Virus record (IMG/VR): IMGVR_UViG_3300017770_000055
Location: 1 to 35,894 of that record
Reading direction: 5' to 3' (one strand)
Origin: a virus
DNA: 35,894 nucleotides
Shown here: positions 2,839-32,200 of the stretch, piece by piece
How the letters are laid out: each line of letters opens with the position of its first letter
Numbering within the stretch: the stretch's first letter is position 1
Notes under the pieces: generated by a model
Told to the model about the DNA's origin: nothing
Seen by the model: the letters and a program-made list of their open reading frames with translations, nothing else
Database searches by the model: none
Made by a program: the position numbers and the translations under genes

Positions 2839-5424
2839 TTAGTTAAGCATGACAGGTAGACCATAAATTTGAGTGGGACCGAGGGCACACCCAAATGCAG
2901 CAAGACCAGTTCCGCACCCATGAGAGAGCAGTCCTGTTGTTACTTGATTAACGATAGCACCGCTACCGCCCGTTACGATCTCACCTATGCCACCTGTTGG
3001 AGTGGACACTAAGGTCATGTGAGCGCCAGCATTAGATCCCGCAACGATGTCTGCCATTCCAGCAGCAGTTTTGGTACCTAGTGACATACGAACATGCATA
3101 GCAGGTGAGACTGATCCCATCGGGGCATCCATGCAGATATCTACAATGGATCCGTTCACCAGACTGTATGAACCAGTAAAGACTGGCATTGTCTGGAAGA
3201 TCGCGATGATGTCCATTCTACCACATGCCAAGAAGGATGTGATCCATGATGCTTCATTCACGATCTCACCAGTTGCCTTGTTTGTGATAGAGGTCGCACT
3301 GGTGTGTACGTCAGGGGCATCAAGGGTGATGCCTGAGATCCCTTTCACTTTAACCTGGTTTCCTTGTAGTGTCAAGTCACCCTGATACGAGATCGCGTGG
3401 TCTCCTGCTTTGGTGGAGGTAGACTTTGCTTCCTTATCACCTGCTTCGATTGATACATTCTTGCCAGAAGCAATCTGAACAGCATTTTCAATAGAATCAG
3501 ATGCTTGCTTAGTCCACTGATTATTGTCCTGACCTAGTGGATTACCACCACCACCTTTTGCCTTAGCACCAGCACCATTAGAAGTGTGCTCGTTAAATGA
3601 TCCTGAAACTTCAAGGTGGAAGTCACCCATCACTTTCAGATAGTAATCACCCTCAATAGTATGAACATGGTTGTTCTTAACATTATGAATAAGGTCACGA
3701 CCAATGATTTGTGTTTCGTTACCAGGAATATTTTGGTGCTCGTTACCTAATTTATCTTGGAAACTAGTGACACCACCAGGACCAGAACGGATACGCTTCT
3801 CTTTACCAGGTGTTGCATCATCAATGTCTCTTGCACCATTCAGGAACAACTTGGTTTCCATTACATATGGATTTAACTTCTGGAAGAACTTATCAAAGAA
3901 GTTTCCACCACTACCTTCCTCACCAAAACTACTGCAATCATCAGAGTCAGAGTTACCACCAGGACCATACAGTCCATCACCAACGTCAGCACACTCGGTG
4001 GTACCAACTAATGGTAACCACCCCTTCGCTTTCGGTTTTCGCGCCTTCCTTCCACAATCAATAAACGATGCAATAATATCAACAATCAGTGCAATGATAT
4101 TAAGAACGTTCGAGAAATTAGTTAACGCTGTAAAATCAATCTCAAAGAACTTACCAACAGAGGTTGCAATCTCACTAATCTTGTCGATAGTGCTGATTGC
4201 TTTGAGAATTTTATTGAAGACCTTAGATACTGCTTTGATTGCTTTACAAATTGCCTTCTGAATATTTTTCAGTGCCTTGGTTACATACTCAGCAATTTGA
4301 TTGATAATTTTGTTAACAATGTCCATGACAAGATCAAATATCCCGTCTACAAAGTCTCCTATCATTCCCATAATATTACCAATAGCATCTAACCATCCAG
4401 GGACAGGTTGACAGAAGATATTCTGAATGATGTTCTTGATCAATGTGATGATAGTAGTGACCACTGCTAGTGGGATGATCTTGGCACCAAATGAAACAAC
4501 AGCATCAATCATCACTCTGATTTGTTGTGCCAGGATCTCCTTAATAGGAGCAACCATACCTGTAACAGCATTAACAACAAAATTAGATACATTACTAATA
4601 CTTTTCAGGATGTTGTTACCTTGCTGAATGTGACCTGAAACAACAGATACCAGACCACCTTCACCATTAGATCCCAATGAACCAATCTGCACACCAATAT
4701 CATTCAACATTCGTGCTAGATCCTTAGAAAAGGAATCACTGGCACCAATAGGACCATGAATACCATCAGCAATACCACCTTCCATTGATGGTGGACCCAA
4801 TGGGTTTGTGTATACATTAAATGGTGCTTCTACTTCTGCTCTACTAATAGCACCACGAGATTGCTCTTCACCACCCTCAGGACCACCAGTAGTAGCACCC
4901 TGATTCTTAACAAATGGATGACCACCTTCAACATCTTCACCTGTCAGAGATTTTCTTTGAGGTGATGTAGTAGCGTACTCATCTTTCTCTGCCTCGGTAT
5001 TATCAGCAATGACAGTCTTACTGACTTCGGTATCTTGACCTTCTTCTCCTCCTGAACCACCACCTTGATTAGTTTTCTTCTTAAATCCACGGAATGCACC
5101 AAGCACACAAGGTAGTTGTGCTTCATCACCATCCATGAAGAAACCCATCACGAATGCACCTACTTGCAATTCGCATGTAGATCCAGCATTCTTGATCTGT
5201 GGTTTATCATTAGGCAACAACACAGTTGCCCACGGTAATACCTCAGTAGGTAAGTCTTCTAGGTAGGTAGAGGATCCATCATCATTAGTTTTACCTTTCT
5301 GATGCCATCCCATGATACGAACTTTGACCCTACCTGTCTGAGCAGGATCTTCTACGCTCTCAACTTCACCAATCCACCAGGAGAAACCATCTCTACCTAC
5401 AAAGTCAGTCTTAGTTCCAAGCAT
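2839..5424 (-). CDS. gp5: gp5-like baseplate hub protein, lysozyme domain not seen (861 aa)
   Basis: The N-terminal ~120 residues (DGFSWWIGEVESVEDPAQ, GRVKVRIMGWH, then LPWATVLLP, a conserved-Gly strand and GAFVMGFFMDGDEAQLPCVL) match the gp5 OB-fold domain that sits at the base of the T4 tail needle. About residues 130-250 are Gly/Glu-rich linker. Residues about 260-465 form a long hydrophobic and amphipathic helical stretch rich in Ile/Val, in the place where T4 gp5 carries its lysozyme domain. Residues about 560-630 (VKNNHVHTIEGDYYLKVMGD) look like the short beta-strand repeats of a needle. The C-terminal 100 residues are Gly/Ala/Thr-rich. T4 gp5 is 575 residues, so this one is enlarged. 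A late-type promoter CTAAATAA is 30 nt upstream, and its ATG touches the cpeT stop. Confidence 0.82.
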   Translation of the reverse strand: MLGTKTDFVGRDGFSWWIGEVESVEDPAQTGRVKVRIMGWHQKGKTNDDGSSTYLEDLPTEVLPWATVLLPNDKPQIKNAGSTCELQVGAFVMGFFMDGDEAQLPCVLGAFRGFKKKTNQGGGSGGEEGQDTEVSKTVIADNTEAEKDEYATTSPQRKSLTGEDVEGGHPFVKNQGATTGGPEGGEEQSRGAISRAEVEAPFNVYTNPLGPPSMEGGIADGIHGPIGASDSFSKDLARMLNDIGVQIGSLGSNGEGGLVSVVSGHIQQGNNILKSISNVSNFVVNAVTGMVAPIKEILAQQIRVMIDAVVSFGAKIIPLAVVTTIITLIKNIIQNIFCQPVPGWLDAIGNIMGMIGDFVDGIFDLVMDIVNKIINQIAEYVTKALKNIQKAICKAIKAVSKVFNKILKAISTIDKISEIATSVGKFFEIDFTALTNFSNVLNIIALIVDIIASFIDCGRKARKPKAKGWLPLVGTTECADVGDGLYGPGGNSDSDDCSSFGEEGSGGNFFDKFFQKLNPYVMETKLFLNGARDIDDATPGKEKRIRSGPGGVTSFQDKLGNEHQNIPGNETQIIGRDLIHNVKNNHVHTIEGDYYLKVMGDFHLEVSGSFNEHTSNGAGAKAKGGGGNPLGQDNNQWTKQASDSIENAVQIASGKNVSIEAGDKEAKSTSTKAGDHAISYQGDLTLQGNQVKVKGISGITLDAPDVHTSATSITNKATGEIVNEASWITSFLACGRMDIIAIFQTMPVFTGSYSLVNGSIVDICMDAPMGSVSPAMHVRMSLGTKTAAGMADIVAGSNAGAHMTLVSTPTGGIGEIVTGGSGAIVNQVTTGLLSHGCGTGLAAFGCALGPTQIYGLPVMLN

Positions 5425-6789: not shown

Positions 6790-8163
6790 CTATTTATTAT
6801 AGGCTGGTAATGAATCTCTGCATAAAAACAGTTCTGTGGTCATTCCTGTGTTAGAATACACATGTTTGACGCCTTTTATGAGGTATTTACCCGAAAACAT
6901 ACGATCTTTTGGCAGTTTATTCTTATTCTTCTGTTGAGATGTAGGTATCTTCACCTTAATTACAGCACCTGCGAACATTCTGGTGTTTCCTGGTACCTTA
7001 ATTGTTAGCGTATGCGTATTTAATAGGTACCAACGTTGAGATGCATATGATGAAGCATTAAGAATACTTGCACTCTCTTCCTCTGCACCACCATCCATAT
7101 TGTTTGAATCCTGCTGTGTCATCTTAGGCAGAATTTTCATTCTGGATCTAGTTGGGTGTAGTTCAAGAAACTCTTCGATTGCTTCGAGATCGTATGGAAA
7201 CTCTTTCTCTAAGGTTGATGCTTTCCCGAACAGTTGTAGGATTTGTGATACCACAGGACCCATTACAGTGCCTTCTGGACCTTCTTCATCGGTAGATGCA
7301 CCTGAGTTTGGTAATGTACTCATTGTGGGTGCTGCCATCACAACACCAAAGGTTGTTGTTTTGTAGATACCATTCCTAAGTTTTTCTAATTGATTAGCAC
7401 GATCAGGATATTTAATACTCTCAATCCTATTCATATCTGCTACTGGATCATTACTATTCACATTTTTCTGTCCATAAATGAATTCATTTATGGCATTTTG
7501 CTCACATAGCATATCAATCGATGCAAAATTATATCCATGCTTATTCTGCCAGAACAAAAATCCTGCTTGCTTCTTAGAAGTTCCTTTCTTACCAGTCTTA
7601 CTATTCTTACCTTTACCTACTCTGGAAACTTTATCAGTTAGATACGATATAGCATCAACAGGTCTCCAATTAGGGCAGATCACATTCATTGGAGTGTGTG
7701 CCTCAACGAAGATATCTTTGTTAGGTATCTTTAAATGCTTCTTCAACATCTCCTGAACAAGATCTGGTTTTCCATTCTTCACACCAAACATACCGAATGC
7801 ACGGTTTGCTTCATTGAAGTACATCTGCTCTGGCGCAAAGTGTAGGATATACATCTTTGCTCTTTCTGATTTCAGAACAGAACCAATCTTATACATCTTG
7901 AAGGTTGCTTTACATCTACCTTCCTTCTTTCCCTCCTCCTGACCAGCGAACGTGGAGAATTCAATATCCAGCATCTCAGTACCAAACAATCTGGTATCTA
8001 AATCTGTGGAATCCAGAATACCAACATCCAATCGAATGAATGGTGAATCAATCGATTCAAACCAAACAAATTCACTAATGATACTTTTAATGTCAAGTGG
8101 TTGATTATCACCACGTAGATGTAAATCTGCTTTGGTTAGTTTATAAGACTTAGTGTCTGCCAT
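6790..8163 (-). CDS. Baseplate hub-type structural protein, gp27-like (457 aa)
   Basis: A 457-residue protein (MADTKSYKLTKADLHLRG) with an N-terminal beta region (FVWFESIDSPFIRLDVGILD, FGTEMLDIEFST), a middle domain with SYLTDKVSRVGKG and AGFLFWQNKHGYNFASIDML, and a C-terminal strand set ending FSGKYLIKGVKHVYSNTGMT-TELFLCRDSLP. That last pattern (binding strand, V-x-H, then T-x-L-x-L-x-R-D) is the ending commonly seen in hub proteins of the gp27/gpD/VgrG N-terminal type. Its position between tape-measure-like genes and gp5 fits gp27. It overlaps the upstream gene by 1 nt. Sequence identity to T4 gp27 is not obvious, so the call is structural inference. Confidence 0.5.
   Translation of the reverse strand: MADTKSYKLTKADLHLRGDNQPLDIKSIISEFVWFESIDSPFIRLDVGILDSTDLDTRLFGTEMLDIEFSTFAGQEEGKKEGRCKATFKMYKIGSVLKSERAKMYILHFAPEQMYFNEANRAFGMFGVKNGKPDLVQEMLKKHLKIPNKDIFVEAHTPMNVICPNWRPVDAISYLTDKVSRVGKGKNSKTGKKGTSKKQAGFLFWQNKHGYNFASIDMLCEQNAINEFIYGQKNVNSNDPVADMNRIESIKYPDRANQLEKLRNGIYKTTTFGVVMAAPTMSTLPNSGASTDEEGPEGTVMGPVVSQILQLFGKASTLEKEFPYDLEAIEEFLELHPTRSRMKILPKMTQQDSNNMDGGAEEESASILNASSYASQRWYLLNTHTLTIKVPGNTRMFAGAVIKVKIPTSQQKNKNKLPKDRMFSGKYLIKGVKHVYSNTGMTTELFLCRDSLPAYNK
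6791..6798 (-). promoter_or_regulatory. Late-type promoter AATAAATA
   Basis: Minus-strand AATAAATA overlapping the last codons of the gp27-like gene and 25 nt before the ATG at 6765. One base differs from the T4 consensus (A for the first T). Confidence 0.45.
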
Positions 8164-11100
8164 TACGCTATGCTAACAGGTTGGTTAAAGATATCCGATG
8201 TAATCCCAAACCTAGGTCTGGCATAATCATTTGCTGGTATTATATAGGGTTCACTACTACCACCACCGCCTGATGGAGCAGCAGCAGCAACTTCGTCATC
8301 ACTACCACCCTGAGGAGGTAAGGTAGCAGCAGAAAGACCACTACCTTCTTTTGCTTCTGCTGCTGCATCATCTTCCTTCTTCTGCATTCCTGCTAGAAGA
8401 TCTGCACCAAATGTTTTATCACTAGGTGAAATGCCACCATCACCATCCATTGCTGATGCATCTGATGCATACTTCTGCAAGAGACCCACCTTGCTACCGA
8501 AGTTCTCCATGACACTTTCCATGGTGACAGGTTTCTTTTGTTTTGCATCACCACCACTTGTATCTCCACTACCTGTTGATGGTTCAGTTGCACTCAAAGT
8601 ATCTGCTGATGTGCCCTGTGAAGTAGCACTCACACCATCATGAGCACCCCAACCCATACCATCAAAGATCTTTTGTTTACCATCCTTCATGACGATATCA
8701 CCAGTCTGATATTTCTTATTAGGATCAAACTTAGGAATACCACCTTTCTTCACTTGCTTCAATGCTGTCATGATCTTGTCAGGAGTCATTGCACTGCTTT
8801 GACCTGGATAATGGAACTTACCATCCATATTAGGTAGTGACGCAAACTCCTGAGATAATCCTTGCATGAATTCTCTATCAGTCATCTTACCCGCTAACCA
8901 GGATTCTGCTCCACGCGCTTTTAAGTTTGCCTCAATAATAATCTTATCTTGATTAGCAGCATTGTATAGATCTTTATCTGGATCTAAACCTGCCTTTCTT
9001 GCTCGTTCAGCAAGGAAACGTGGAAGTTGTTGATACTTACCTACTGCACCTGATGCCTGACCAATAACCTGAGAAATGGTCATCTTAGTAGCACCTGGAA
9101 GAGTGGTACTAGGATACATCGCTTCATAATTACCACCAGATTCTTTACCAGCAACCAGATTCAACAACGGTGCCCATTTACCACCCGAAGAGAATCCATC
9201 CATGGCACTAGCATCTGATGCATAGTCTGTCAACATCCCAGTGGATTTACCAAAGAAATCCATAATTGCACCAGTGGACTTATATTGTGCCTCTTCCTGT
9301 GTTGCACCCGCCCCAGGGGACGCGCTAGACACCCCTGAGGGGGATGTAGAGGTGGATCCACTAGGACTGGATACAGTTGTCTTTGCTCCCTTGACTGGTG
9401 CTACTGATCCTGATGATTCTGCCACGGTGGAATCACCACCCATAAATCCTCTCGCCTTAGCGCGAATGATATTACCACCAGATCCTTTCTCTCCGTTCTT
9501 AGTGAGGTGCCAGAGATCCCAACGTGCTCCATCACCACCCCATGCCGTAGGACCATAGTTATCATTGCGAGGTAGTTGACCATCTTTACCAGATGCTGCC
9601 TCAGCATGAGTCATCACATTCTTAACATTAATATCATTAGGAGACCACCCTCTGTTCTTTGCAATATTAGCAATCTCTTTGGACATTGAAGTGACTTGAT
9701 CATCACTAGGCCAACGATAATTACCTGCCCCACCTGACATCGCGGCGAGAGACAATCCAATACCTGTACTATTTCTTAAATATGTGTGTGCAACACCACC
9801 TCTTTGATCATAGGGGTGTGCTCGATATACACTACCATCACCTTGAATGATACCGTGATACTTTCCTTTCTGCTTAAAGTTACCACCACCAGCGGTCCAG
9901 TGCAAGAACATCTTGCCACCTTTCGCCATCCTATCCATTCCAGAAAGACGATTCTCTTCCTGTGAACCATCACGACGGTGATTCTTTGTGCCAGATAACT
10001 TACCACCCTTAGCAAATGCAGGGAGTCCATAACCACCCGCTTTCGCCTGCTGCATTCTCATGCTAGTCAGACCATTGCCACCCCTAGTTGCAGGAGTATC
10101 GAATGGTACAACGAATGCATCACCACCACTAGAACGTTTACCTACCCATTCAGTACCATGACCGATGAATGATGTAGATCTGCCACCATCAAGTGATACA
10201 GGATATCCAGATTGAGGACCATTAATCCATCCACCACCTGATGCTTTACCAACTTGACCACCTATTGCTTTACCTTCTAACCTCTCTAATTGTTGTTTGA
10301 TGGGTTTATCTTTACCCAACATCTTCTGAATGAAGTTAAGACTGTCTAACTGCTTCTGCAACTGCTTCTCAGTCTCTTCTTCACCCTTATCCTTCACCAT
10401 ATCATCGACACTTTCCTCAGTAGGATCTTCATTAAATGCACCAGCAGCGGCAGCAACTGCGGTACCTGCTAAGAATGCTCCTGCTACCCAAAGACCTCTA
10501 CCTTTAACAAAGGCAAATATTCCTTTGAACATACTAGTAACACTCTTGAATAGTGTACTAATAAATCCTGAAACACCTTTAACTAATCCACCACTTTTCG
10601 CCAGTTTAAAGAATAAACCAAGACCTAATTTTGCTACGGCAGCAGGAGCAAATATGAGTCCTAATGCTGTAACAAATTTGATGATACCAAATACACCTTC
10701 CAAACTTAATGGATTATCTAAGAATTCTATGAGACCATTGAGTCCCATACTGACCAGGGCACCATAGGTCTCGATAAGAAACTTACCAATAGATTTTATT
10801 GCTTCAAAGAACTTTTTAATTTTCTCGGTGTTCTCAGGATCTCCAAACCACTCCATCACTCCATAAAGGAGTAATGATTTGAAGATACCACCGAACAGTT
10901 GAGCAATCCCTTGGAAGAATCCAAATGTCTTAGCAGCAATTGCTTTACTCTTCTCAGCAATTTTGCTCTTACCTTTACCTTCTTGCTTTGCTTCTGCTTT
11001 CTTATCTTGTTCTAACCCTTCTGCTTTCTTATCTTTACGTTGCTGATCTTTGAGAAGTTTCTTCTCATCTATCATCGCATCTTTACGTTGATCAAGGATA

Positions 11101-11339
11101 CCTTGCTGTAACGAAAGAGTTTGTGAATAAAAATTCTTGAATGAGGCACTCATGTCCTCAACTAGAATGGCAATACTATTGGTAGTCGCACCAAGACTGT
11201 TGACTGCTTTGATATTTTTAACAAAACCTACTGTTGGTGAAGTGATTGTCTTATCACCAATCTTCACAGTAATTCCACCCTTACCAGTAGTGGAAGGGGG
11301 TGTTACATACTTATATAATCTTGCTTTGGTTTCTGCCAT
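8163..11339 (-). CDS. Tape-measure-like tail protein with amidase and lysozyme-like domains (1058 aa)
   Basis: Residues about 60-135 are a charged coiled coil (Lys/Glu/Gln rich). Residues about 140-310 hold several hydrophobic helices, as in tail tape-measure proteins. Around 475-600 is an N-acetylmuramoyl-L-alanine amidase (Amidase_2) domain: MFLHWTAGGGNF with the first zinc His, YHGIIQGDGSVYRAHP, VAHTYLRNSTGIGLSLA, and MTHAEAAS with a later ligand. Around 720-830 is a lysozyme-like muramidase domain: LVAGKESGGNY with a catalytic-type Glu, SGAVGKYQQLPRFL, and NQDKIIIEANLKARG. Two copies of a YASDASAMDG motif flank this half. The N-terminal half is paralogous to the gene just upstream. Likely role: tail length and wall penetration. 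It starts directly after the upstream stop. Confidence 0.72.
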   Translation of the reverse strand: MAETKARLYKYVTPPSTTGKGGITVKIGDKTITSPTVGFVKNIKAVNSLGATTNSIAILVEDMSASFKNFYSQTLSLQQGILDQRKDAMIDEKKLLKDQQRKDKKAEGLEQDKKAEAKQEGKGKSKIAEKSKAIAAKTFGFFQGIAQLFGGIFKSLLLYGVMEWFGDPENTEKIKKFFEAIKSIGKFLIETYGALVSMGLNGLIEFLDNPLSLEGVFGIIKFVTALGLIFAPAAVAKLGLGLFFKLAKSGGLVKGVSGFISTLFKSVTSMFKGIFAFVKGRGLWVAGAFLAGTAVAAAAGAFNEDPTEESVDDMVKDKGEEETEKQLQKQLDSLNFIQKMLGKDKPIKQQLERLEGKAIGGQVGKASGGGWINGPQSGYPVSLDGGRSTSFIGHGTEWVGKRSSGGDAFVVPFDTPATRGGNGLTSMRMQQAKAGGYGLPAFAKGGKLSGTKNHRRDGSQEENRLSGMDRMAKGGKMFLHWTAGGGNFKQKGKYHGIIQGDGSVYRAHPYDQRGGVAHTYLRNSTGIGLSLAAMSGGAGNYRWPSDDQVTSMSKEIANIAKNRGWSPNDINVKNVMTHAEAASGKDGQLPRNDNYGPTAWGGDGARWDLWHLTKNGEKGSGGNIIRAKARGFMGGDSTVAESSGSVAPVKGAKTTVSSPSGSTSTSPSGVSSASPGAGATQEEAQYKSTGAIMDFFGKSTGMLTDYASDASAMDGFSSGGKWAPLLNLVAGKESGGNYEAMYPSTTLPGATKMTISQVIGQASGAVGKYQQLPRFLAERARKAGLDPDKDLYNAANQDKIIIEANLKARGAESWLAGKMTDREFMQGLSQEFASLPNMDGKFHYPGQSSAMTPDKIMTALKQVKKGGIPKFDPNKKYQTGDIVMKDGKQKIFDGMGWGAHDGVSATSQGTSADTLSATEPSTGSGDTSGGDAKQKKPVTMESVMENFGSKVGLLQKYASDASAMDGDGGISPSDKTFGADLLAGMQKKEDDAAAEAKEGSGLSAATLPPQGGSDDEVAAAAPSGGGGSSEPYIIPANDYARPRFGITSDIFNQPVSIA
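8442..8516 (-). repeat. YASDASAMDG motif, copy 1
   Basis: Encodes 25 residues beginning SVMENFGSKVGLL and ending YASDASAMDG. It is one of three copies of the same motif found in the two tape-measure-like proteins. Confidence 0.75.
9195..9269 (-). repeat. YASDASAMDG motif, copy 2
   Basis: Encodes 25 residues beginning AIMDFFGKSTGML and ending YASDASAMDG, immediately before the lysozyme-like domain of the 1058-residue protein. It resembles copy 3 most closely. Confidence 0.8.
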
Positions 11340-14300
11340 TTACTGTGTGAGCAGGGGAGATGATGCGGGACCAGAGTTACCGCCACCACCACCACCAGCA
11401 TTGACTGTCTTAGTCTTGATAACTGGTTGCACTGCAATCATCATATCAGGTTTAGCGGGTTGCTTATCTCTACGTACCTTTGCAGTAGATAGAGATTTTA
11501 ATTTCTCTGCTTTTGTATTTATGCTAGAAGGTGCAGTGGTCTTGGACTTTGCTGCATCATTGATTTTAGTAGCATATGCAGCACCATCAGCAACAGGACC
11601 AATGTTAGTCTCTGATTTTGGTTTGAGACTTTCAGCATATGCACCACCATCAACAAGAGGTCCTATACCATTCAACGGTGTCTTTGGCATACTTGTGGAT
11701 GTTGGTATAGGACTTGGTGGCATTCCTGAACCATCCATTGCTGATGCATCTGATGCATACGACCCCAATATACCAGCAGACTTCTTAAAGAAATCTACAA
11801 TACTACCAGTTGATCTATATTCTTGCTGTGGTGTTGCACCACCCTTATCACCACCACCACTGTTGTCACCTGTTTTAGCAGTAGATCCACCACCACCTGT
11901 GTTACCACCACCAGCATCGCCAGATGCAACATAAGATCCAGCACCATCGGTACTACCAGAACCACTCAGATTCTCCCAGTGCCATGCTTCATGTCCATCA
12001 GGATTGTCTGTTTCATATCCTGGTATCTGACCAAAACCAAATTTGCCTGCATTCTTCCTTAACCATTTATATGATGCATTAGTGTACCAAAGGTCAACTG
12101 CTTTACCTAAACCATGATTAGATGTTCCTGGATATGCAGCAGTACCAGGTCCTAATTGATCATAAAGTTGCTTCTGCTTATCATATGTTCTATATGATGA
12201 GTTGATTCTAAAATGAGTTCCCATCTTGAATCCAGACTCTGATGCTGATTGCATCATTGCCTTGAACTGTGGTGCAATTCCCTTAGCAAGTTTATGACCA
12301 CTACCAATAGATACTAGATCTTCATCAGGTAGTTGTCCATTGACAGTACCACCCTTAGCAAATTTACCCCAATCGGAAACAGGTGTCTTTGCAGTATCTT
12401 TCCGTTTCAGAATAACAGGATCTACAAATCTCTTAGTTCCTTGGTTGTGTGCGCGAATAGCACCACCCTTTGCCATCTCGGGAAGTTCTGGTGGTGTAAT
12501 CTCTGCCGTGCCATCACCATCATTCTCAGCGGCACCCATCAATGCCTCCATACCAGGCATTTCACCATTAGGATCACGTACAAGTTTCCTCTGTGGAAAA
12601 TCACCCCCAAGTTGCTTAGCAATTGGATCATCTATATCTGCTAGACCAGTCTTAGCAAGCAAACCAAGTAGTTGCTCTCCTGCCCACTCACCAGCGAATC
12701 CACCAGCAGCACCAGTAATGAAACCAGGAACACCACCAAATGGAGCACCAATAGCAAAACCAGCACTATATCCTAATAAACCACCTAATGCTTTCAGTAT
12801 AGCGTTGATAGGTGACTCACCAAATGCACCATAATCTAACAATGCCATGACAGAGGCAATCAGTGTATCAATACCACCAATCTTCATGCTGGATTTCGCA
12901 GCACCAAGAAACTCTCGCATGGTCTTGAACCCAGGATTCTTAAATCCTGATGCCAAGAAACTAACAACAGATTTTCCTGCCGTCTTTACCTGTTGTCCTC
13001 TTGGTAACTCAGCAAACTCGGCAATCTTCTTTGCCTGAGGGTTCTTCTCTAATATAGGTTTGATGAAGTTTTTGACTTTTGTAGTTACCTTTGCAGCAAG
13101 TGCCTTAGGATTCTTTGCCATTTCGACAACATCACCAAGACTCTTCGCCGCTCTCTTACCAAAGTCCCAGATGCCTTGACCCATACCCTTGACACCATCA
13201 ATCATGGCACCCGCACGAGCACCAAACCAATTATTAAGTCTGCCTACCTGCTTTAATGCAAAAGTGCCACCCTCTTTGAGTTTTGACTTAGCAACAGCAC
13301 CCGCATCGAGAGTACCAGACCAGATGTTTCTAAGAGTACCTACGACACCCTTGTTAGTTGCTGCTGCTTCTGCAACCTCATCACCAAGACCCATCGCTTG
13401 CTGGGTTGCCTGCTTACGTGCCTGTTCAAGTTGAAATGGTGTTTTAGGTGTTGGTTTTACAGCAGGTGTTGGTGGTTTCTTGAATAAACCATTGATACCA
13501 GTCGCTGCTGCTGTAAACTTTTTAGTAATCTGACTACGAAGAGCCTTGATTCTTCTAAGTCTCTTCGCTTTCTTTATATCTCTAAGACGCTGCTTCGATG
13601 TTCTACCATCTCTACCAATTCTCTTACCTTTCGGTTTTTTTACCTTAGGTCCACACCCCATGGAATCGGCAGCGTCTACCGCCTTACCGAGACCAAACAT
13701 AAATTTGACATCACTTAGCAACTTCCATGGCATTAGGATGCGTGATCCAATATGGATTGCAGCGAATCCCGCTAAGATTTTAAGGACACCAAACATCTTA
13801 TCGAGACCATTCCCGATCATACCCTTATCAGGGTCATATCCAAATACGTCAGTTATACCATCCAGAACTGTACCAACACCCCAACGGGTGAACGTTGATG
13901 CAAGATTCCAGACACCCTTAAAGAAATTGAATAACTTAATTATCTTTTCTTTATTCTTTTCATCACCTAACCAGTCCATCACCCCCATCGCAATCGGGAT
14001 GGCAACTAACTTCATCAAACCACCCATTAGGACGGCCATTGGTTTCAGCAGTGCTTTCAACCACCCAAATCTAGATTTCTTCTCTTTCTTACCTTCTTCT
14101 AGTCCTGCCTTCTCTTCACCTTTCTCATTCAGAGATTCTTGCTTCTTCTCTGCTAACTTATCTTGCTGTAAACCTTTCTTCCTACCAAGTGCGTCAGTCT
14201 TTGCTTCAATTATCTTCTTTCTATGCTCACTCTCTTCCGTCGATATATCTATCTCTTCTTGCAAGAATCCTACTGTGGACTCTTGATACATTTCAACTAG

Positions 14301-14456
14301 TGTTTTAAACTCTGTAAGTTGTACACCAATATTTGTTACAGCACCACCCATACGATTTTGGGCAATGGTCATTTTTTTAAATACCTTGCCCAAATCATCA
14401 GAACCAGTCATTTGACTGGGACTGACCGTAATATATTTTCTAAGAGTTGCTGCCAT
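11340..14456 (-). CDS. Tape-measure-like tail protein with VanY-type (M15) peptidase domain (1038 aa)
   Basis: Starts MAATLRKYITVSP; residues about 50-125 are coiled coil, 130-260 are hydrophobic helices with VMDWLGDEKNKEKIIKLF, which aligns with VMEWFGDPENTEKIKKFF in the 1058-residue neighbour. Residues about 520-620 are Gly/Ala-rich and hydrophobic (GGLLGYSAGFAIGAPFGG). About 700-830 is a D-Ala-D-Ala carboxypeptidase-type M15 domain: INSSYRTYDKQKQLY, GTSNHGLGKAVDLW with zinc His and Asp, and HEAWHWE with the third zinc ligand. One YASDASAMDG motif follows at about residue 903. It directly follows the gp26/gp51-like pair, the usual place of a tape-measure gene. The T4 equivalent, gp29, is 590 residues and has no such domain. 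Confidence 0.7.
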   Translation of the reverse strand: MAATLRKYITVSPSQMTGSDDLGKVFKKMTIAQNRMGGAVTNIGVQLTEFKTLVEMYQESTVGFLQEEIDISTEESEHRKKIIEAKTDALGRKKGLQQDKLAEKKQESLNEKGEEKAGLEEGKKEKKSRFGWLKALLKPMAVLMGGLMKLVAIPIAMGVMDWLGDEKNKEKIIKLFNFFKGVWNLASTFTRWGVGTVLDGITDVFGYDPDKGMIGNGLDKMFGVLKILAGFAAIHIGSRILMPWKLLSDVKFMFGLGKAVDAADSMGCGPKVKKPKGKRIGRDGRTSKQRLRDIKKAKRLRRIKALRSQITKKFTAAATGINGLFKKPPTPAVKPTPKTPFQLEQARKQATQQAMGLGDEVAEAAATNKGVVGTLRNIWSGTLDAGAVAKSKLKEGGTFALKQVGRLNNWFGARAGAMIDGVKGMGQGIWDFGKRAAKSLGDVVEMAKNPKALAAKVTTKVKNFIKPILEKNPQAKKIAEFAELPRGQQVKTAGKSVVSFLASGFKNPGFKTMREFLGAAKSSMKIGGIDTLIASVMALLDYGAFGESPINAILKALGGLLGYSAGFAIGAPFGGVPGFITGAAGGFAGEWAGEQLLGLLAKTGLADIDDPIAKQLGGDFPQRKLVRDPNGEMPGMEALMGAAENDGDGTAEITPPELPEMAKGGAIRAHNQGTKRFVDPVILKRKDTAKTPVSDWGKFAKGGTVNGQLPDEDLVSIGSGHKLAKGIAPQFKAMMQSASESGFKMGTHFRINSSYRTYDKQKQLYDQLGPGTAAYPGTSNHGLGKAVDLWYTNASYKWLRKNAGKFGFGQIPGYETDNPDGHEAWHWENLSGSGSTDGAGSYVASGDAGGGNTGGGGSTAKTGDNSGGGDKGGATPQQEYRSTGSIVDFFKKSAGILGSYASDASAMDGSGMPPSPIPTSTSMPKTPLNGIGPLVDGGAYAESLKPKSETNIGPVADGAAYATKINDAAKSKTTAPSSINTKAEKLKSLSTAKVRRDKQPAKPDMMIAVQPVIKTKTVNAGGGGGGNSGPASSPLLTQ
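11730..11804 (-). repeat. YASDASAMDG motif, copy 3
   Basis: Encodes 25 residues beginning SIVDFFKKSAGIL and ending YASDASAMDG, in the C-terminal part of the 1038-residue protein. The last ten residues are identical in all three copies. Confidence 0.8.
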
Positions 14457-14635
14457 TAGAGGGAGTTCTTCTGTTTAGATCTTTCTCGTTCTTCTTCTTG
14501 GAGGTATGCCAAGAGCAAGTTAGTATAAACTTCTCGTTCCCAAGGTATCATGGTTTCCAACTCAGCGAGTGAATACTTATGATGATGCATTAAGGCGAAG
14601 TTAGTCTTGTAATAATTTTCAAGACTACTATGCAT
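14456..14635 (-). CDS. gp51-like small ORF, likely frameshift partner of gp26 (59 aa)
   Basis: A 59-residue ORF from an ATG at 14633-14635 to a TAA that overlaps the next gene's ATG (TAATG). The product begins MHSSLENYYKTNFALMHHHK and continues YSLAELETMIPWEREVYTNL before a charged tail. In T4, gene 51 (hub assembly catalyst) directly follows gene 26, and this position and the IPWEREVY-type sequence fit the short gp51-like proteins of cyanophages. It lies in the -1 frame relative to gp26, with no stop between the gp26 slippery heptamer and its ATG, so it may be made mainly as a C-terminal extension of gp26 rather than alone. Its own ATG has no clear ribosome site. Confidence 0.6.
   Translation of the reverse strand: MHSSLENYYKTNFALMHHHKYSLAELETMIPWEREVYTNLLLAYLQEEERERSKQKNSL
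14602..14627 (-). other. Stem-loop downstream of the gp26 slippery site
   Basis: Minus strand TAGTCTTG, ten-nt loop AAAATTATTA, CAAGACTA: an 8-bp perfect stem. It begins 19 nt after the heptamer, farther than the usual 5-9 nt of a frameshift stimulator, so a stimulating role is unproven. Confidence 0.4.
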
Positions 14636-14640
14636 CAGGG

Positions 14641-15342
14641 CTATGCGAAAAAAGAAGCGAGTCCTTCAAGTGTAACAGTATTCACAACTTTGGTCTTAGG
14701 ATTCTCAACATCGAACTCATGCACTAGTTTAGGCATGGTATCGAAGAATTGTTGAATCATACCAAACTGTTCATTGTTCATCTGACCAAGGAAATCCTTT
14801 GCTTCATTCTTAGTGAATGAATCATAGGTCTCTTCACCTTCATATACTTTCTTGATGCAACTAGCAGCAAGATCAAACACATCATCAATATCAGGTTCGT
14901 CTTTCATGTTTCGATCGACGAATGCTTCGAGAGCAGGATACTTCATCTCAATTTTGACAGTTTCATTCAGTTTGATAATCTTTTTGTGTTCCTTAGGAAC
15001 GATTACCTCAACATCTTCAAGGTTGATAGCAACATCAACTTGGGTTTCACCATCATCTTGACATGTGACTTTGAATTCACTGACTTCACCAACTGCCTTG
15101 GATCTGATCTTCAAGAATAGATATTCAATCTCAAATGTTGCAAGATTATCAACAGTTTTTAGATTAGTACACGCCTTCAAGATAGTCTTGACTGCTTTGA
15201 ACATCTCCTTCTCGTTCTGAGTTTCCATAGCGAGATAAAGTAGTTTCTCCTCTTTTACAAGGAAAGGTCTATACGTGACCTTTGTTCCACTGATGGGCAT
15301 TTTGCACTCATAATCAGGGACAACAAGAGTAGGAAGTGGCAT
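14641..15342 (-). CDS. gp26: gp26 baseplate hub subunit (233 aa)
   Basis: MPLPTLVVPDYECKMPISGT, then VTYRPFLVKEEKLLYLAMET and TLKACTNLKT-type helices match the T4 gp26 baseplate protein family (T4_baseplate), which acts in building the central hub. T4 gp26 is 208 residues, so length agrees. The protein ends EGLASFFA. The last codons contain U UUU UUC in the zero frame, a canonical -1 slippery heptamer, and the -1 frame runs without a stop into the gp51-like ORF, giving a possible fusion of about 295 residues. A late-type CTAAATAA box is 20 nt before the ATG. Confidence 0.85.
   Translation of the reverse strand: MPLPTLVVPDYECKMPISGTKVTYRPFLVKEEKLLYLAMETQNEKEMFKAVKTILKACTNLKTVDNLATFEIEYLFLKIRSKAVGEVSEFKVTCQDDGETQVDVAINLEDVEVIVPKEHKKIIKLNETVKIEMKYPALEAFVDRNMKDEPDIDDVFDLAASCIKKVYEGEETYDSFTKNEAKDFLGQMNNEQFGMIQQFFDTMPKLVHEFDVENPKTKVVNTVTLEGLASFFA
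14647..14653 (-). other. -1 ribosomal frameshift slippery heptamer T_TTT_TTC
   Basis: In the gp26 reading frame the codons are TCT TTT TTC GCA TAG. The heptamer T TTT TTC fits X XXY YYZ. After a -1 slip the frame continues CGC ATA GCC CTG ATG, joining the gp51-like ORF in frame. The site is only one codon before the gp26 stop. Confidence 0.65.
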
Positions 15343-15375: not shown

Positions 15376-16125
15376 TTATCCGATGCTAAACCTTTGTACA
15401 TCAGGATTACCCGAACCAGATACTCTGAATTGAATTTCATCATAATTGATAACCTGTCTCTTACCGTCTTTTGTTTTAAGTGTGGCAGGTGAAACTTGAT
15501 CGAAACGATATCGTTCAAAGTAAAACTGTATATCCATTTGCAACAAACTTGTCTGTTCGTTATCAAATGACATTGTACTAATATTAGTTGGGAATGCACC
15601 ATACATCTTCCATACAGCAGATGCCTGTGATGGATGTAAACCTGTTGACTTAGGATACCCCTTAGGTTTGATCTTAAAGTTTGCTCCGTGCTCCCACTTG
15701 ACGATCATCATGTCTGTCACATAATTATCATAGAAACCCACAGTATTGTCAGAGTCAGAGGCAGCAGCATTCATCCATTGCTCAAAGAATTGCCTGTGCT
15801 GCATATCCTTGGTCACTAAGAATGAAATAGTAATCTCAGAGTTAGTTTGACCTGTCACGAATCGACGCATCATACCAAAGTTGTTGACTTCACCAGTAGT
15901 GATTGCTCTACTAGGGACAGTTACATTAGATGCATAGTAATTAATATTTCGTACAGTATTGACTGCTCGATTACGTATCTGCTTATTTACAGTACCATTC
16001 TGAGTGTTATCAGAGAATACTGCTGGCAATGGCAGGATGATCTGATACAGATTGCTAGTAGCAGGTGCTCCTGCATTCGTTGCAATTTGTTCTCTAAAAT
16101 CAGTAAATCTGTTGGGGGTTGCCAC
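15376..16125 (-). CDS. Tail-tube-fold protein, gp54/gp19-like (249 aa)
   Basis: MATPNRFTDFREQIATNAG at the start, then NINYYASNVTVPSRAITTGE, VTGQTNSEITISFLVTKDM, HRQFFEQWMNAAA, WKMYGAFPTNISTMSFDNEQ and LQMDIQFYFERYRFD. The order (mid-strand with V-P-x-R, F-E-x-W-M helix, FPTNIS, final strand with F-Y-F-E-R-Y) is that of the gp19/gp54 tail-tube fold. In a T4-type tail, gp54 starts the tube on the baseplate, which suits its place beside gp26 and across from gp48. T4 gp54 is 320 residues and gp19 163. A CATAAATA box at 16270-16277 inside the upstream gene could be its late promoter. The choice gp54 versus another tube-fold paralogue is inference. Confidence 0.6.
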   Translation of the reverse strand: MATPNRFTDFREQIATNAGAPATSNLYQIILPLPAVFSDNTQNGTVNKQIRNRAVNTVRNINYYASNVTVPSRAITTGEVNNFGMMRRFVTGQTNSEITISFLVTKDMQHRQFFEQWMNAAASDSDNTVGFYDNYVTDMMIVKWEHGANFKIKPKGYPKSTGLHPSQASAVWKMYGAFPTNISTMSFDNEQTSLLQMDIQFYFERYRFDQVSPATLKTKDGKRQVINYDEIQFRVSGSGNPDVQRFSIG

Positions 16126-28886: not shown

Positions 28887-29216
28887 TCAGTCCTTACCAA
28901 TAGCATTTCGGATCGTCTGGATCTGCTGCTCAGTGGGCACTTGATTGATCTCGACAGGTTCTGTGGGCATGTCAGGCATCACCTCTTTGAGTTCTTCGAG
29001 TGCCAATGGAATATTTTCTAGACTATCGGCGGATTGTTCAAGGCGATCCATCTCACCCATCCATCCGTAGTGATACTTCTTCCACTGTTTAAGCATCTTC
29101 TTACGACCCGTAGGATCATCAGGATACTTACGTAGAATCTTTTGTAGTCCTGTGAGTTTCTTAACACCATCGACAATGGATCGATCAGTATTCCTCTCAC
29201 TAAATCCTTTACTCAT
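28887..29216 (-). CDS. Conserved hypothetical protein (109 aa)
   Basis: MSKGFSERNTDRSIVDGVKK, LRKYPDDPTGRKKMLKQWKK then a Leu/Glu-rich helix (DRLEQSADSLENIPLALEEL) and a C-terminal half with PDMPTEPVEINQVPTEQQIQ. No family recognised. It overlaps the giant adhesin-like gene by ATGA, so it is translated from the same late transcript and could be a chaperone or attachment partner for it; that is only inference. Confidence 0.6.
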   Translation of the reverse strand: MSKGFSERNTDRSIVDGVKKLTGLQKILRKYPDDPTGRKKMLKQWKKYHYGWMGEMDRLEQSADSLENIPLALEELKEVMPDMPTEPVEINQVPTEQQIQTIRNAIGKD

Positions 29217-32200
29217 TCAACTTCCTCAATTTCAATTTTAAATCTGATACGTTTAACCTTACGGTCACTCTGACACATGAACCATAGATTGGAGTCTCTG
29301 TTATGGGACTCCTGATAGATAACTTCCTTAGGAGCATAGGTATTCTCATACCTATCTGATATATCGTTACCAATAGTTGCGCTATTGATTCTATTAGGTA
29401 GGTCAACACCTGTATTCTTATCCCTAGGATAGAATGGCGTCGGGTTACCCAAATCATTAGCATCACCATAGGTATCCTTCTGCTTCTGAATTGGAGGCCA
29501 AGTCAGATCAAAAGATTGCCCTGCTGCATAGGATGTACCTCTATCTAGCAGATCAAACAACTCAACACCAACTGCCCAGTAGATAGCGTTACCAAATCTA
29601 GGTTCTGATGAGTCAGAATCATTTGACTTTGTAGTGTAAGGCCAGAAAGCAATACGAACTTTGGCTTCTGGACGAGAGGTACTACCATCCTGGAATGATT
29701 CCTCAGAATCAAATTCACCTAATACATAATCATGCATAAAGGACATCTTACTATACTGCCCATTGCTTGATACTGCAACCCCCCTAGGATAGTTGCTCTG
29801 AGTACCAGCATCATTGATACCTTTTGCATAGTAGTCATCAAAGTCTTCGACTGCTTCTAAGAATAGATCATCAGTGATACCAGAGTTAGCAAACCACCCC
29901 ACGAATCCATGAGTGTTAGACATGTGAGCGTACCTACTCAGGTCACCTCTCACATTCTCTGCTGGTTTACATAGGAACCCTCTACCATGCTCGAACAGAT
30001 TGTTGTAGAAGATACCACGGTTATCAGAAACGATAGGTGAGTCAACGAATGCTCCTTTACTATCGATGTTACTACTCATGATAACTCCTCTACGATTTCT
30101 GCTACCACCCTCATAGAATCCTTCGTTACCACCCGATTCATACCATTCTTCACCTGCATAGTACACATCATTCCAGTCAACGTCCTGACCATTAGAACCA
30201 TTGGTATTGAGTTGACCGTTGTCCCAGACAGTAACTTTCTTTGACCATGCTTTGTTCTGCTGATCCCAGAGACGAATACTCATCCGTTTGATACGACCAT
30301 TGTTATCTGTTCTAGGAGTCTCAGAGGTAACGATAGATCGTCTCTCTACCTCACCAGTGATAGGTGAAGTTCCTAGATCCATGTTCCATGGTTTTTCAAA
30401 TACCTGGTCATCACGATCGAAGATAGCGAATCCTAATGAGGCAAGACCAGACCGTGGTCCTCTTTGTATTGTAGCAATCTGGAACTTAATCGTATCACCC
30501 TTTGATACAGAGAATTCTCCCAGAGTAGAACCAACAATTGGCCAGTCACCAACCAGTATAGAGTCTTCAATAATAATAGTATTATTTTTATACAATCTAT
30601 ATTTGAATCTCAGGTCCTCAATCTCTGGTGATCTAATGATACTACCAAATGCTTTCAAAGATAGGTTAGCATTGCGTTGTGCCTTAATCTTTTGAGTTCT
30701 TCTAGTGCTATGAGTATACTCACCACTACATTTACCCGTCAAAGATTGTGTGTTAGTGGTACCACTATTGGGTGGTGTCCTAGGACCACACTCAGAACGC
30801 ATAACCATTCCATCACGGAAGATCTTATTGAACAATGGATCCTGACAGTTCTCTCTAACTGTGATAGGAATCATGATCGGTGGTGGTGCGTCTTCACCAA
30901 AGACATAACATGCAATGCCTTCATACAACCACTCACTACCAACCCATGCAACACGATAGGAGACCTTGAAGTCATTGTAATCTTCATCACTGTCTGATCC
31001 ATGAAGATCTTCCCACCACTGCTCATGGTTTCCATGATACTTAACCTTGTTCCTCTTATCAGGATTCATAAGGTGGTTGGTGAAGAACACCCAGTTGTTC
31101 TCAACTGATGCATTATTCTTATATGCATTACCATTAGCACTGAATGTAATACTCTGACCATCAGAGATACCATTGGAACCACCATCAGGAATCAAAAAGA
31201 ATACTATCTCTTTGTTTCTATACGTGTTCAATACATCCACTGGTATCTGATACTGTGTCATAGGAATGTTTCGAGTTGTATTCGACTCGATCACTCGTGC
31301 CCAGTAGATCTGATCACCATCTTTATTAGTGATCGCAACACCCCATGAGTTTGAGTATCCTGCACTACCCTTAGAAACTTGATAAGAAATAGTGAAAGGA
31401 CTCTCATTATCACTAGGAATTTGATAACTTAATCTGCTTGGATGATACCTAGGAGGTGTCTCAGTATTATTTCTCTTAACAATATTGTACTTGTGATCAT
31501 CTTTGGGATTAAATCCACCACCAATACTACCAATTCTCACACTAGCATTACAATCACTGCCATCACCATCCTTCAAGCATAACTTTTTATTATTATCTTG
31601 ACGTGACATACCGCCACCCTGTGACTTAGATCGATCATAACTAACTGTATTAGTGCCGCTGGTGACATTCATTAGTAGGGATCCAGACCCTTTCTCACCA
31701 CTTCTATTCACTGACTGACCAGAAGCAGAGACAGATTCAAAAGCAGTACCAGCAGTTCTTGGATTATCATCCCAAGATACTTCTAACTTTAACTGAGCAC
31801 TACCACTACCAGTACATACAACGTTACCACTACTATCAAATTCACAACTTAGATCACAACCATTACCATTGTAGTAACGATGTAGTTCTTGAATCTGTTC
31901 TTTCTCAGTGAGACTGGCGGACGCTTTATCTTTCTGTCCAAATGCATACCCAAGGAACTCACCCTCTGCCATCCCTGCCGCGTCCATAGTTGCACGTTCA
32001 CCTGCACCTCTACTCTCAGGAGCACCAGGATTAATAGTGAGGAATGTATCTACTGTACTAGAAGAATAGTATCTCCACAGTGGAACAGCACCACTAACAG
32101 GGTTCTTCAATAGATAGAAGACAGGTTCACCATCATTACTGACAGTATATCCTGGTTTATCTGGTGTAGGAGTAAGACCATATCTATGATCACCACCTGA

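Follow-up and report, generated by a model that had tools for sequence, protein, structure and literature searches.

ORF A and ORF B, two adjacent genes in the tail locus of a T4-like cyanophage (i.e., a marine virus of cyanobacteria), encode paralogous proteins of near-equal lengths, at the position expected for a tail-length ruler. The best explanation, to which a probability of about two thirds is given, is that A is the tape measure and B its partner in the tail lumen, both of these paired proteins delivering wall hydrolases. The features of the window (the whole stretch of 35,894 nucleotides that was analysed) are collected in Table 1; the two large ORFs are present as announced in the original prediction, with 1038 and 1058 residues, both on the minus strand.

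Table 1. Positions of A, B, their domains and the neighbouring tail genes in the window
Feature	Positions	Strand	Basis
ORF A (1038 aa), tape-measure-like paralogue; bears M15 peptidase	11340..14456	-	Pfam, BLASTP, profile comparison
ORF B (1058 aa), tape-measure-like paralogue; bears amidase and lysozyme-like domains	8163..11339	-	Pfam, BLASTP, profile comparisons
A residues 1-230, helical N-terminal region (profile comparison)	13767..14456	-	hhalign; helix 21-108 in model
B residues 1-230, helical N-terminal region (profile comparison)	10650..11339	-	hhalign; helix 37-120 in model
A residues 721-828, M15/VanY peptidase; H781, D788, E823, H826	11973..12296	-	Pfam, motifs, Foldseek
B residues 479-585, Amidase_2; candidate zinc ligands H480, H578, D608	9585..9905	-	Pfam
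B residues 717-869, lambda-lysozyme-like domain, candidate catalytic E733	8733..9191	-	Domain alignment profile
B residues 369-446, predicted beta; highest conservation within B among close relatives	10002..10235	-	Alignment and model
YASDASAMDG module, A copy, residues about 887-909	11730..11798	-	
YASDASAMDG module, first B copy, residues about 687-715	9195..9281	-	
YASDASAMDG module, second B copy, residues about 938-966	8442..8528	-	
gp26-like protein (short tail assembly chaperone)	14641..15342	-	Pfam T4_baseplate E 3.7e-66; family profile matches T4 gp26, E 9.2e-17
TTTTTTC slippery heptamer, X_XXY_YYZ register; XXY codon begins 9 nt before gp26 stop	14647..14653	-	
gp51-like ORF of 59 aa in the -1 frame; fusion of 295 aa expected upon a -1 shift	14456..14635	-	
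gp27-like tail hub protein	6790..8163	-	phrog_350 (tail protein), E 5.5e-91; position suggests equivalence to gp27
gp5-like baseplate hub protein	2839..5424	-	phrog_694 E 2e-188
Tail-tube-like protein, upstream of gp26	15376..16125	-	phrog_45 E 4.4e-42

Common origin and enzyme modules of A and B

A and B share 29% identity over 157 aa (BLASTP, E 3e-13) with an additional C-terminal match of 52 aa (E 1e-10), and the profiles of their N-termini align over 186 columns (hhalign profile-profile comparison, 99.45%, E 4.8e-22). Judged on sequence, the paralogy is beyond chance, and the duplication that had been proposed is borne out by both the BLASTP match and the N-terminal profiles. In P-SSM4 and P-SSM2, A and B have no mutual match at E 0.01 (pairwise BLASTP), and the B proteins of cluster C are barely detected by profiles built without them.

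The AlphaFold model of A (low confidence, mean pLDDT 48) has 463 helical residues among the first 600, and that of B (mean pLDDT 45) is mostly helical from residue 37 to 355. VanY/LdcB-like chains are the sole structures matched by the model of A at E <0.001 (Foldseek); the model of B has no match at this threshold, a result of little weight since the model is poor. The segment 369-446 of B has 26/27 invariant columns (32 sequences), is present in 49 of the 74 B proteins and is modelled with pLDDT block means of 74-86 over residues 371-440. As a separate observation, A has one copy and B two copies of a module ending in YASDASAMDG, which the original prediction did not mention.

The three enzymes that had been announced are all recovered. 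(i) The M15/VanY domain of A scores 44.7 bits for a cut-off of 25 (Pfam, E 1.4e-11), contains the zinc motif HxxxxxxD + ExxH and matches BaLdcB (4mph, Foldseek, E 1.3e-5). (ii) The Amidase_2 domain of B scores 29.4 bits for a cut-off of 26 (Pfam, E 1.2e-6); the domain lacks a confident model, H480 and H578 fit zinc ligands and D608, just outside the Pfam match, may be the third one. (iii) The lysozyme-like domain of B has no Pfam match and B as a single sequence has no PDB match at E up to 0.1, therefore a domain alignment was used: with 15 members, it matches the lambda lysozyme (1am7, 3d3d; E 4.3e-8), and Glu733 is invariant in 15/15 sequences. From family knowledge, the three enzymes are predicted to act on three bond types; M15 enzymes comprise carboxypeptidases as well as endopeptidases.

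The gp26/gp51 slippery site and the proposed role of the pair

A lies directly downstream of the gp26/gp51 pair. A slippery heptamer rich in T is found in 103/103 distinct gp26 ends (37 of 140 having been removed as repeats), and gp51 occupies the -1 frame. The heptamer is TTTTTTC in 102 cases and TTTTTTT in one; among the 100 complete cases, the -1 extension has 58-67 codons. Two controls were considered: TTT-TTC encodes 1/115 Phe-Phe pairs elsewhere in the same genes vs. 102/103 at the site, and codons of Ser, Ala, Asn, Asp and Gly ending in T represent 62% elsewhere in the genes vs. 103/103 at the site. In the profile of the fused family, the first part matches T4 gp26 and the part that spans the junction matches T4 gp51. 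These sequences point to a chaperone pair of the lambda G/GT type with putative -1 frameshifting, and A follows this pair and its predicted -1 site as a tape measure is expected to do.

Two search results count against this role: A and B have no match to any PHROG that bears the name tape measure (E up to 0.1), and their N-terminal profiles have no detectable similarity to T4 gp29 (E 6). Weak matches of the S-N03 B protein and the S-CRM01 protein to tape-measure PHROGs are in its favour. A search with T4 gp29 matches 1160 phage records, among which at most 15 are Synechococcus records.

Starting from the computed homology, enzyme families, synteny and conserved slippery site, we infer the occurrence of frameshifting, a location in the lumen, the ruler function, the order in which the proteins exit and the enzyme activity as follows: (i) the helical N-terminal halves of A and B would derive from one ancestral tape measure; (ii) gp26 and the gp26-51 fusion, which would arise by -1 frameshifting, would act as a chaperone pair that coats at least A; (iii) the tube would polymerise round A, which would thus set the tail length; (iv) B would be loaded beside or after A, in the same lumen, adjoining the gp27-like hub; (v) upon contraction of the sheath, the tube would pierce the outer membrane and A and B would exit first; (vi) the C-terminal peptidase, amidase and lysozyme modules of A and B would then open the peptidoglycan.

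The pair in relatives and the weighing of the alternatives

Among 140 loci, 65 were dropped since no gp27-like gene was recognised in the DNA examined; two large genes are present in 74 of the 75 that were left (a number that counts some contigs twice), i.e., 54 pairs after removal of 20 near-repeats at 95% gp26 identity. Nearly all of the relatives examined thus have the duplication, which is not peculiar to the source phage. The enzyme modules differ between lineages and swap between A and B paralogues: the S-CREM2 pair has GH19 and a phage lysozyme, and in the S-SCSM1 pair A has a glucosaminidase and B has VanY. S-CRM01 has a single mosaic gene at the locus, the product of which is A-like over residues 4-447 and at the C-terminus, has the B-type lysozyme and matches neither the A nor the B N-terminal profile. 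In pf16, the one candidate gene (650 aa) matches both N-terminal profiles (E 1.9e-8 and 3.1e-6).

Both proteins were detected in the virion proteome of S-CREM2 (ORF208/209, with 73 and 71 unique peptides) and in virion preparations of S-SCSM1 (ORF213/214); the authors of these proteomes read them as capsid-packed or non-structural. The S-SZBM1 proteome was left out, since the gene numbers of that paper differ and do not map to A and B. Virion detection of orthologues in these two relatives is consistent with the tail position that had been predicted, which is putative for all of them.

The 85 reciprocal pairs of S-CREM2 (tail of 418 nm) and S-N03 (138 nm) give length ratios of 2.02 for B and 1.68 for A, in a comparison that covers parts of both genomes and does not contain genes without reciprocal match (e.g., the 4971-aa long tail fibre). 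The only other sense-strand gene above 1.2 is a homing endonuclease (1.27, the first of two such rows, with a start longer than annotated); according to the annotated coordinates, the rows at 3.25, 2.03, 1.40, 1.37 (twice), 1.27 (the second) and 1.26 correspond to antisense frames. For six isolates, tail length is correlated with the length of A (rho 0.94, n=6, dominated by S-CREM2) and weakly with that of B (rho 0.49, n=6; 0.10 without S-CREM2). S-CRM01 (140-170 nm) and pf16 (148 nm) were kept out of this series because each has one candidate gene, S-CREM1 (165 nm) is outside it as its hub region is not in the two stretches examined, and the value used for S-SZBM1 is the upper one of the published range. 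Tail length per residue of A is 0.127-0.182 nm in five isolates and 0.267 nm in S-CREM2, for a ruler expectation of about 0.15, and that of B is 0.125-0.287 nm. At 0.27 nm/residue, which exceeds an alpha helix, a single helix of A could not span the S-CREM2 tail. In the comparison of protein and tail lengths suggested with the original prediction, B tracks tail length less well than A, and the nm/residue value is not constant; the -1 site, the gene order and the growth together with the extreme tail argue for a tape-measure role of the locus, not necessarily of both proteins.

These data also bear on a serious alternative, held at slightly under even odds, according to which A alone is the tape measure and B a duplicated copy that has lost the ruler role and serves as lysin cargo close to the hub. 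In its favour, A is next to the chaperone pair and follows tail length better than B does, and the single S-CRM01 protein is A-like with a B-type lysozyme; nevertheless, the correlation is one of six isolates dominated by S-CREM2, B retains the helical N-terminal layout and the length of B follows that of A.

The lengths of A and B are correlated (r 0.88, n=54; 0.86 without S-CREM2; 0.84, n=51, without the three longest pairs), their median difference is 7.2% vs. 28.3% in shuffles and 34 of the 54 pairs are within 10%. The short pair of P-SSM2 measures 529 and 516 aa. In nearest-pair comparisons, which are not formal phylogenetic contrasts, both lengths shift the same way in 22/26 non-zero cases (21/25 without S-CREM2), with r 0.90 (27 pairs) decreasing to 0.77 (26) without S-CREM2. 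As controls, the length of A is not related to that of the gp27-like protein (0.07), A+B gives 0.13 with the next large ORF (n=31), and A vs. gp26 gives rho -0.47 (p 3e-4), for which there is no explanation. One may then suppose that the tail has two rulers, A and B, which lie alongside each other over its length and are hence equal in total length. The length match, the concerted changes, the similar numbers of unique peptides in S-CREM2 and the still shorter but matched pair of DSL-LC02 (387 and 368 aa by annotated coordinates) are in favour of it. On the contrary, the segments from the N-terminus to the landmark anticorrelate between A and B (r -0.72, n=24), and equal parallel rods are therefore not claimed; the relation of B to tail length is weak, there is a single gene in S-CRM01, and the length match may come partly from enzyme gain by both proteins, the added length being in part enzyme modules. 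Two rulers are thus unlikely, and it is equally doubtful that each tail has two duplicated, length-matched tape measures with interchangeable hydrolases and that -1 frameshift chaperones are ancestral and were replaced in T4 by two genes. It should be noted that the A-alone and two-ruler readings overlap with the best explanation in the role of A, and the probabilities do not sum to one.

It is very unlikely that neither protein is a tape measure, the pair being virion-associated lysins of the baseplate hub or co-purifying lysis enzymes and the ruler an unrecognised gene elsewhere: the records do label the pair as hypothetical protein, endolysin, chitinase, lysozyme or GH104 protein, the source-phage pair has no tape-measure PHROG and the S-SCSM1 proteome authors allow for carry-over, but a frameshift chaperone pair is expected ahead of a tape measure, the regions compared contain no further sense-strand ortholog whose length increases to a similar extent with the tail of S-CREM2, and 5 of the 6 shortest pairs (54-pair set) have no recognised wall hydrolase. 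The enzymes are therefore not the conserved part, yet the shorter DSL-LC02 pair is annotated with them (GH104 protein for A, and endolysin), which counters, as a rule, that short pairs lack enzymes. The GH104 label is taken to mean a lambda-type lysozyme such as the domain of B.

Significance and comparison with known systems

If A is the tape measure and B its lumen partner, the pair represents a core tail component, as yet unnamed, of a marine virus group that is abundant, the enzymes of A and B are to be re-read as tools of entry, not exit, and the S-CREM2 / S-N03 contrast renders tail-length control testable. With the slippery site, the way in which T4-like phages make their chaperones can be tested directly. 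The term "tape measure" is absent from the main text of the cyanophage papers searched for it, except PMC10611076, the consulted part of which mentions predicted tape measure proteins among seven phages (two of them Kyanoviridae, one being DSL-LC02) without naming the gene. The pairs ORF208/209 of S-CREM2 and ORF213/214 of S-SCSM1 resemble A and B, being adjacent, in the same place and virion-detected; they differ by their enzymes, and were published as lysis or non-structural proteins.

T5 pb2 is a tape measure protein with a wall hydrolase. Such proteins are also represented, according to excerpts of PMC3556154, by phiCbK gp95 (with CHAP) and by TM4 Tmp, which is cited there. As far as these excerpts describe it, the gp95 type is likewise a tail protein behind -1 frameshift chaperones that bears a peptidoglycan hydrolase; here, two paralogues divide mobile hydrolase modules and the nm/residue value is not constant.

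In T4, gp29 (590 aa, as correctly given in the original prediction) is the ruler and gp5 the spike lysozyme. The A/B locus has homologues of gp26 and gp51 and gp27-like and gp5-like neighbours, as in T4. It differs in that the N-termini of A and B do not resemble gp29 detectably, and that the Pfam matches of the gp5-like protein (E up to 0.1) include no lysozyme family, the enzymes being on A and B. Lambda G/GT are tail assembly chaperones. The same role is attributed to T4 gp26/gp51 (Vladimirov 2022, cited in an excerpt of PMC10885494). A short and a long chaperone with a common sequence are the shared trait, the long one being predicted here; in T4, gp26 and gp51 are separate genes on opposite strands, whereas here there is one gene with a -1 slip site.

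Paralogy and enzyme domains of A and B

On the - strand of the window (a virus record of 35,894 bases), the tail genes are ordered as tube-like, gp26, gp51-like, A, B, gp27-like, 2OG oxygenase, CpeT and gp5-like. Synechococcus phage S-WAM1 (Kyanoviridae) is the top-ranked annotated phage for both A and B. The N-termini of A and B match at 29% over 157 residues (BLASTP, E 3e-13), and a C-terminal match covers 52 residues (E 1e-10). Profiles of the first 230 residues, built from 54 members each, align over 186 columns (99.45% probability, E 4.8e-22); at E < 1e-3, the A profile finds 47/54 B proteins and the B profile 51/54 A proteins. Judged by these alignments, the paralogy put forward in the original prediction is real. 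AlphaFold models, whose mean confidence is low (48 for A and 45 for B), place a long first helix at residues 21-108 of A and 37-120 of B, followed by further helices. The YASDASAMDG module (a short segment common to both proteins) has one copy in A and two in B, in the window and in four near-identical loci, and fewer copies in six close relatives; this pattern is a sign of putative recent exchange between the two genes. Among close relatives, 26 of the 27 invariant columns of B fall in residues 369-446, a segment detected in just 49 of 74 B proteins.

The three hydrolase-type domains proposed earlier are found, with predicted activity: (i) VanY/M15 in A (residues 721-828, Pfam E 1.4e-11), with H781, D788, E823 and H826 at the expected places and a Foldseek match of the AlphaFold model to BaLdcB (E 1.3e-5); (ii) Amidase_2 in B (residues 479-585, Pfam E 1.2e-6), with H480 and H578 at the expected places and D608 as candidate third ligand; (iii) residues 717-869 of B, which have no Pfam match, their 15-member alignment matching lambda lysozyme (E 4.3e-8) and also a chain named hub (8kea, 8e-6), with Glu733 invariant (15/15). 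No lysozyme family is among the Pfam matches of the gp5-like hub protein; weak matches to several tape-measure PHROGs (best E 1.6e-7) cover roughly residues 235-509 of this protein. A 1527-aa ORF, i.e., a large protein without assigned function, matches the head-protein PHROGs phrog_773 and phrog_26970 at about residues 637-759.

Coordinates of the features in the window and in related loci
Feature	Location	Strand	Remark
gp5-like hub protein	window 2839-5424	-	Pfam and PHROG searches
ORF B	window 8163-11339	-	1058 aa
B residues 369-446	window 10002-10235	-	most conserved B segment in close relatives, predicted beta
ORF A	window 11340-14456	-	1038 aa
T-rich slippery heptamer, gp26 end	window 14641-14660	-	gp51 in -1 frame
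1527-aa ORF	window 29213-33796
S-CRM01 single gene	L058 13919-16513		A-like + B-type lysozyme
Long pair	L042 5352-13652		1516/1248 aa
Long pair	L044 7041-15575		1562/1280 aa
DSL-LC02 pair	L152 9714-11989		387 and 368 aa

Occurrence of the pair and distribution of the enzymes

Of 141 loci, 140 have a recognised gp26, and 75 of these also a recognised gp27-like gene. Between gp26 and the gp27-like gene, 74 of the 75 loci have exactly two genes of 200 aa or more, S-CRM01 being the sole locus with one. The S-CRM01 protein resembles A over residues 4-447 and at the C-terminal end, yet has a B-type lysozyme; the gene is an A/B mosaic. Some loci are repeats, and 54 pairs are left below 95% gp26 identity.

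Over these 54 A and 54 B proteins (Pfam, E up to 0.01), A has VanY (9), M23 (5), GH19 (4), Phage_lysozyme2 (3) and six other hydrolase families (1 each); B has M23 (9), Phage_lysozyme (7), Amidase_2 (6), Phage_lysozyme2 (3), M15_3 (1) and glucosaminidase (1). In the window, B carries the lambda-lysozyme-like domain and A carries VanY. The lambda-lysozyme-like domain sits on A in six loci, i.e., L042, L049 (P-TIM40), L072, L084, L094 and L139, and VanY sits on B in S-SCSM1, where A has a glucosaminidase. The distribution of these predicted domains indicates that the wall enzymes are modules. In five of the six shortest pairs (451-558 aa), the ten proteins yield no wall-hydrolase family at Pfam E up to 0.1 but some weak, unrelated matches, and none of the ten is among the matches to the lambda-lysozyme-like domain. 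Since the families vary, shift between A and B and are missing in five of these six pairs, the conserved part is the N-terminal backbone and no single enzyme. The claim that short pairs lack enzymes is weakened by DSL-LC02, outside the 54-pair set, whose pair is the shortest seen and is annotated as GH104 protein and endolysin.

Protein lengths, tail length and virions

The lengths of A and B are correlated (r 0.88, 54 phages with gp26 < 95% identity; 0.96 among 10 phages with gp26 < 60% identity; 0.86 without S-CREM2). In 27 non-overlapping nearest-pair comparisons the length changes are also correlated (r 0.90), with the same direction in 22 of the 26 non-zero ones. The median A-B length difference is 7.2%, versus 28.3% after shuffling. 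The distances from the N-terminus to a conserved landmark in A and in B are anticorrelated (r -0.72, n=24), a result that disfavours a simple side-by-side arrangement.

Reciprocal best matching between the compared genome parts of S-CREM2 (tail 418 nm) and S-N03 (tail 138 nm) gave 85 ORF pairs. On the sense strand, the length ratio exceeds 1.2 in three genes, namely B (2.02), A (1.68) and a homing endonuclease (1.27), with 1.19 as the next value. In six isolates (S-CREM2, S-N03, S-H34, S-SCSM1, ms29 and, with the upper value of its tail length, S-SZBM1), tail length follows A (rho 0.94) more than B (rho 0.49), and without S-CREM2 the values are 0.90 and 0.10. A is probably the ruler. The simple rule of a fixed tail length per residue fails in S-CREM2, where 0.267 nm per residue of A (0.127-0.182 in the five others) is more than a helix allows. 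The extra residues of S-CREM2 include low-complexity repeats and sequence that, by eye, resembles further enzyme domains. Two pairs, in L042 and L044, are near S-CREM2 in size; very long tails are possible in these uncultured phages.

For S-CREM2, 73 unique virion peptides belong to the orthologue ORF208 (1565 aa) and 71 to ORF209 (1456 aa); both are read by the authors as endolysins that may be capsid-packed (PMC10665884). ORF213 and ORF214 of S-SCSM1 were also detected in a virion preparation; its authors considered them unlikely structural and possibly carry-over (PMC9602691).

The gp26/gp51 slippery site and comparison with T4

A heptamer in slippery register is present at all 103 distinct gp26 3' ends (TTTTTTC in 102, TTTTTTT in Pseudomonas phage pf16), its XXY codon beginning 6 or 9 nt upstream of the stop codon; these loci are related, so the ends are not independent trials. 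The -1 frame extends over 58-67 codons in 100 complete cases. Codon choice was compared because selection on the protein might by itself preserve the Phe-Phe pair. TTT-TTC encodes Phe-Phe in 102/103 cases at the site versus 1/115 elsewhere in the same genes, and Ser/Ala/Asn/Asp/Gly codons end in T in 103/103 versus 62%; these checks strengthened the case. The fused gp26-51 profile matches T4 gp26 (E 9.2e-17, positions 10-238) and T4 gp51 (E 7.9e-9); as the latter match covers positions 131-282 of 300, T4 gp51 spans the fusion junction. The title of Vladimirov and others (2022), cited in PMC10885494, claims that T4-like phages make the chaperones otherwise than by frameshifting. No description of the cyanophage site was recognised in literature listings on frameshifting with gp26, gp51 or cyanophages.

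The observation behind the original prediction is real and its interpretation mostly correct; A and B are better described as two tape-measure-like backbones with exchangeable wall hydrolases, a pair that is widespread and lies behind a frameshift-type chaperone pair. A tape measure with a hydrolase is of an already known kind, and no description of the paired, enzyme-swapping form was found in the literature searched. In many long-tailed phages, two chaperones that arise by -1 frameshifting precede the tape measure gene (PMC3556154). In T4, gp26 and gp51 are separate genes on opposite strands, whereas in the cyanophage loci gp51 is in the -1 frame of gp26; the heptamer appears to mark a programmed frameshift that cyanophages have kept and that T4 has exchanged for two separate genes.
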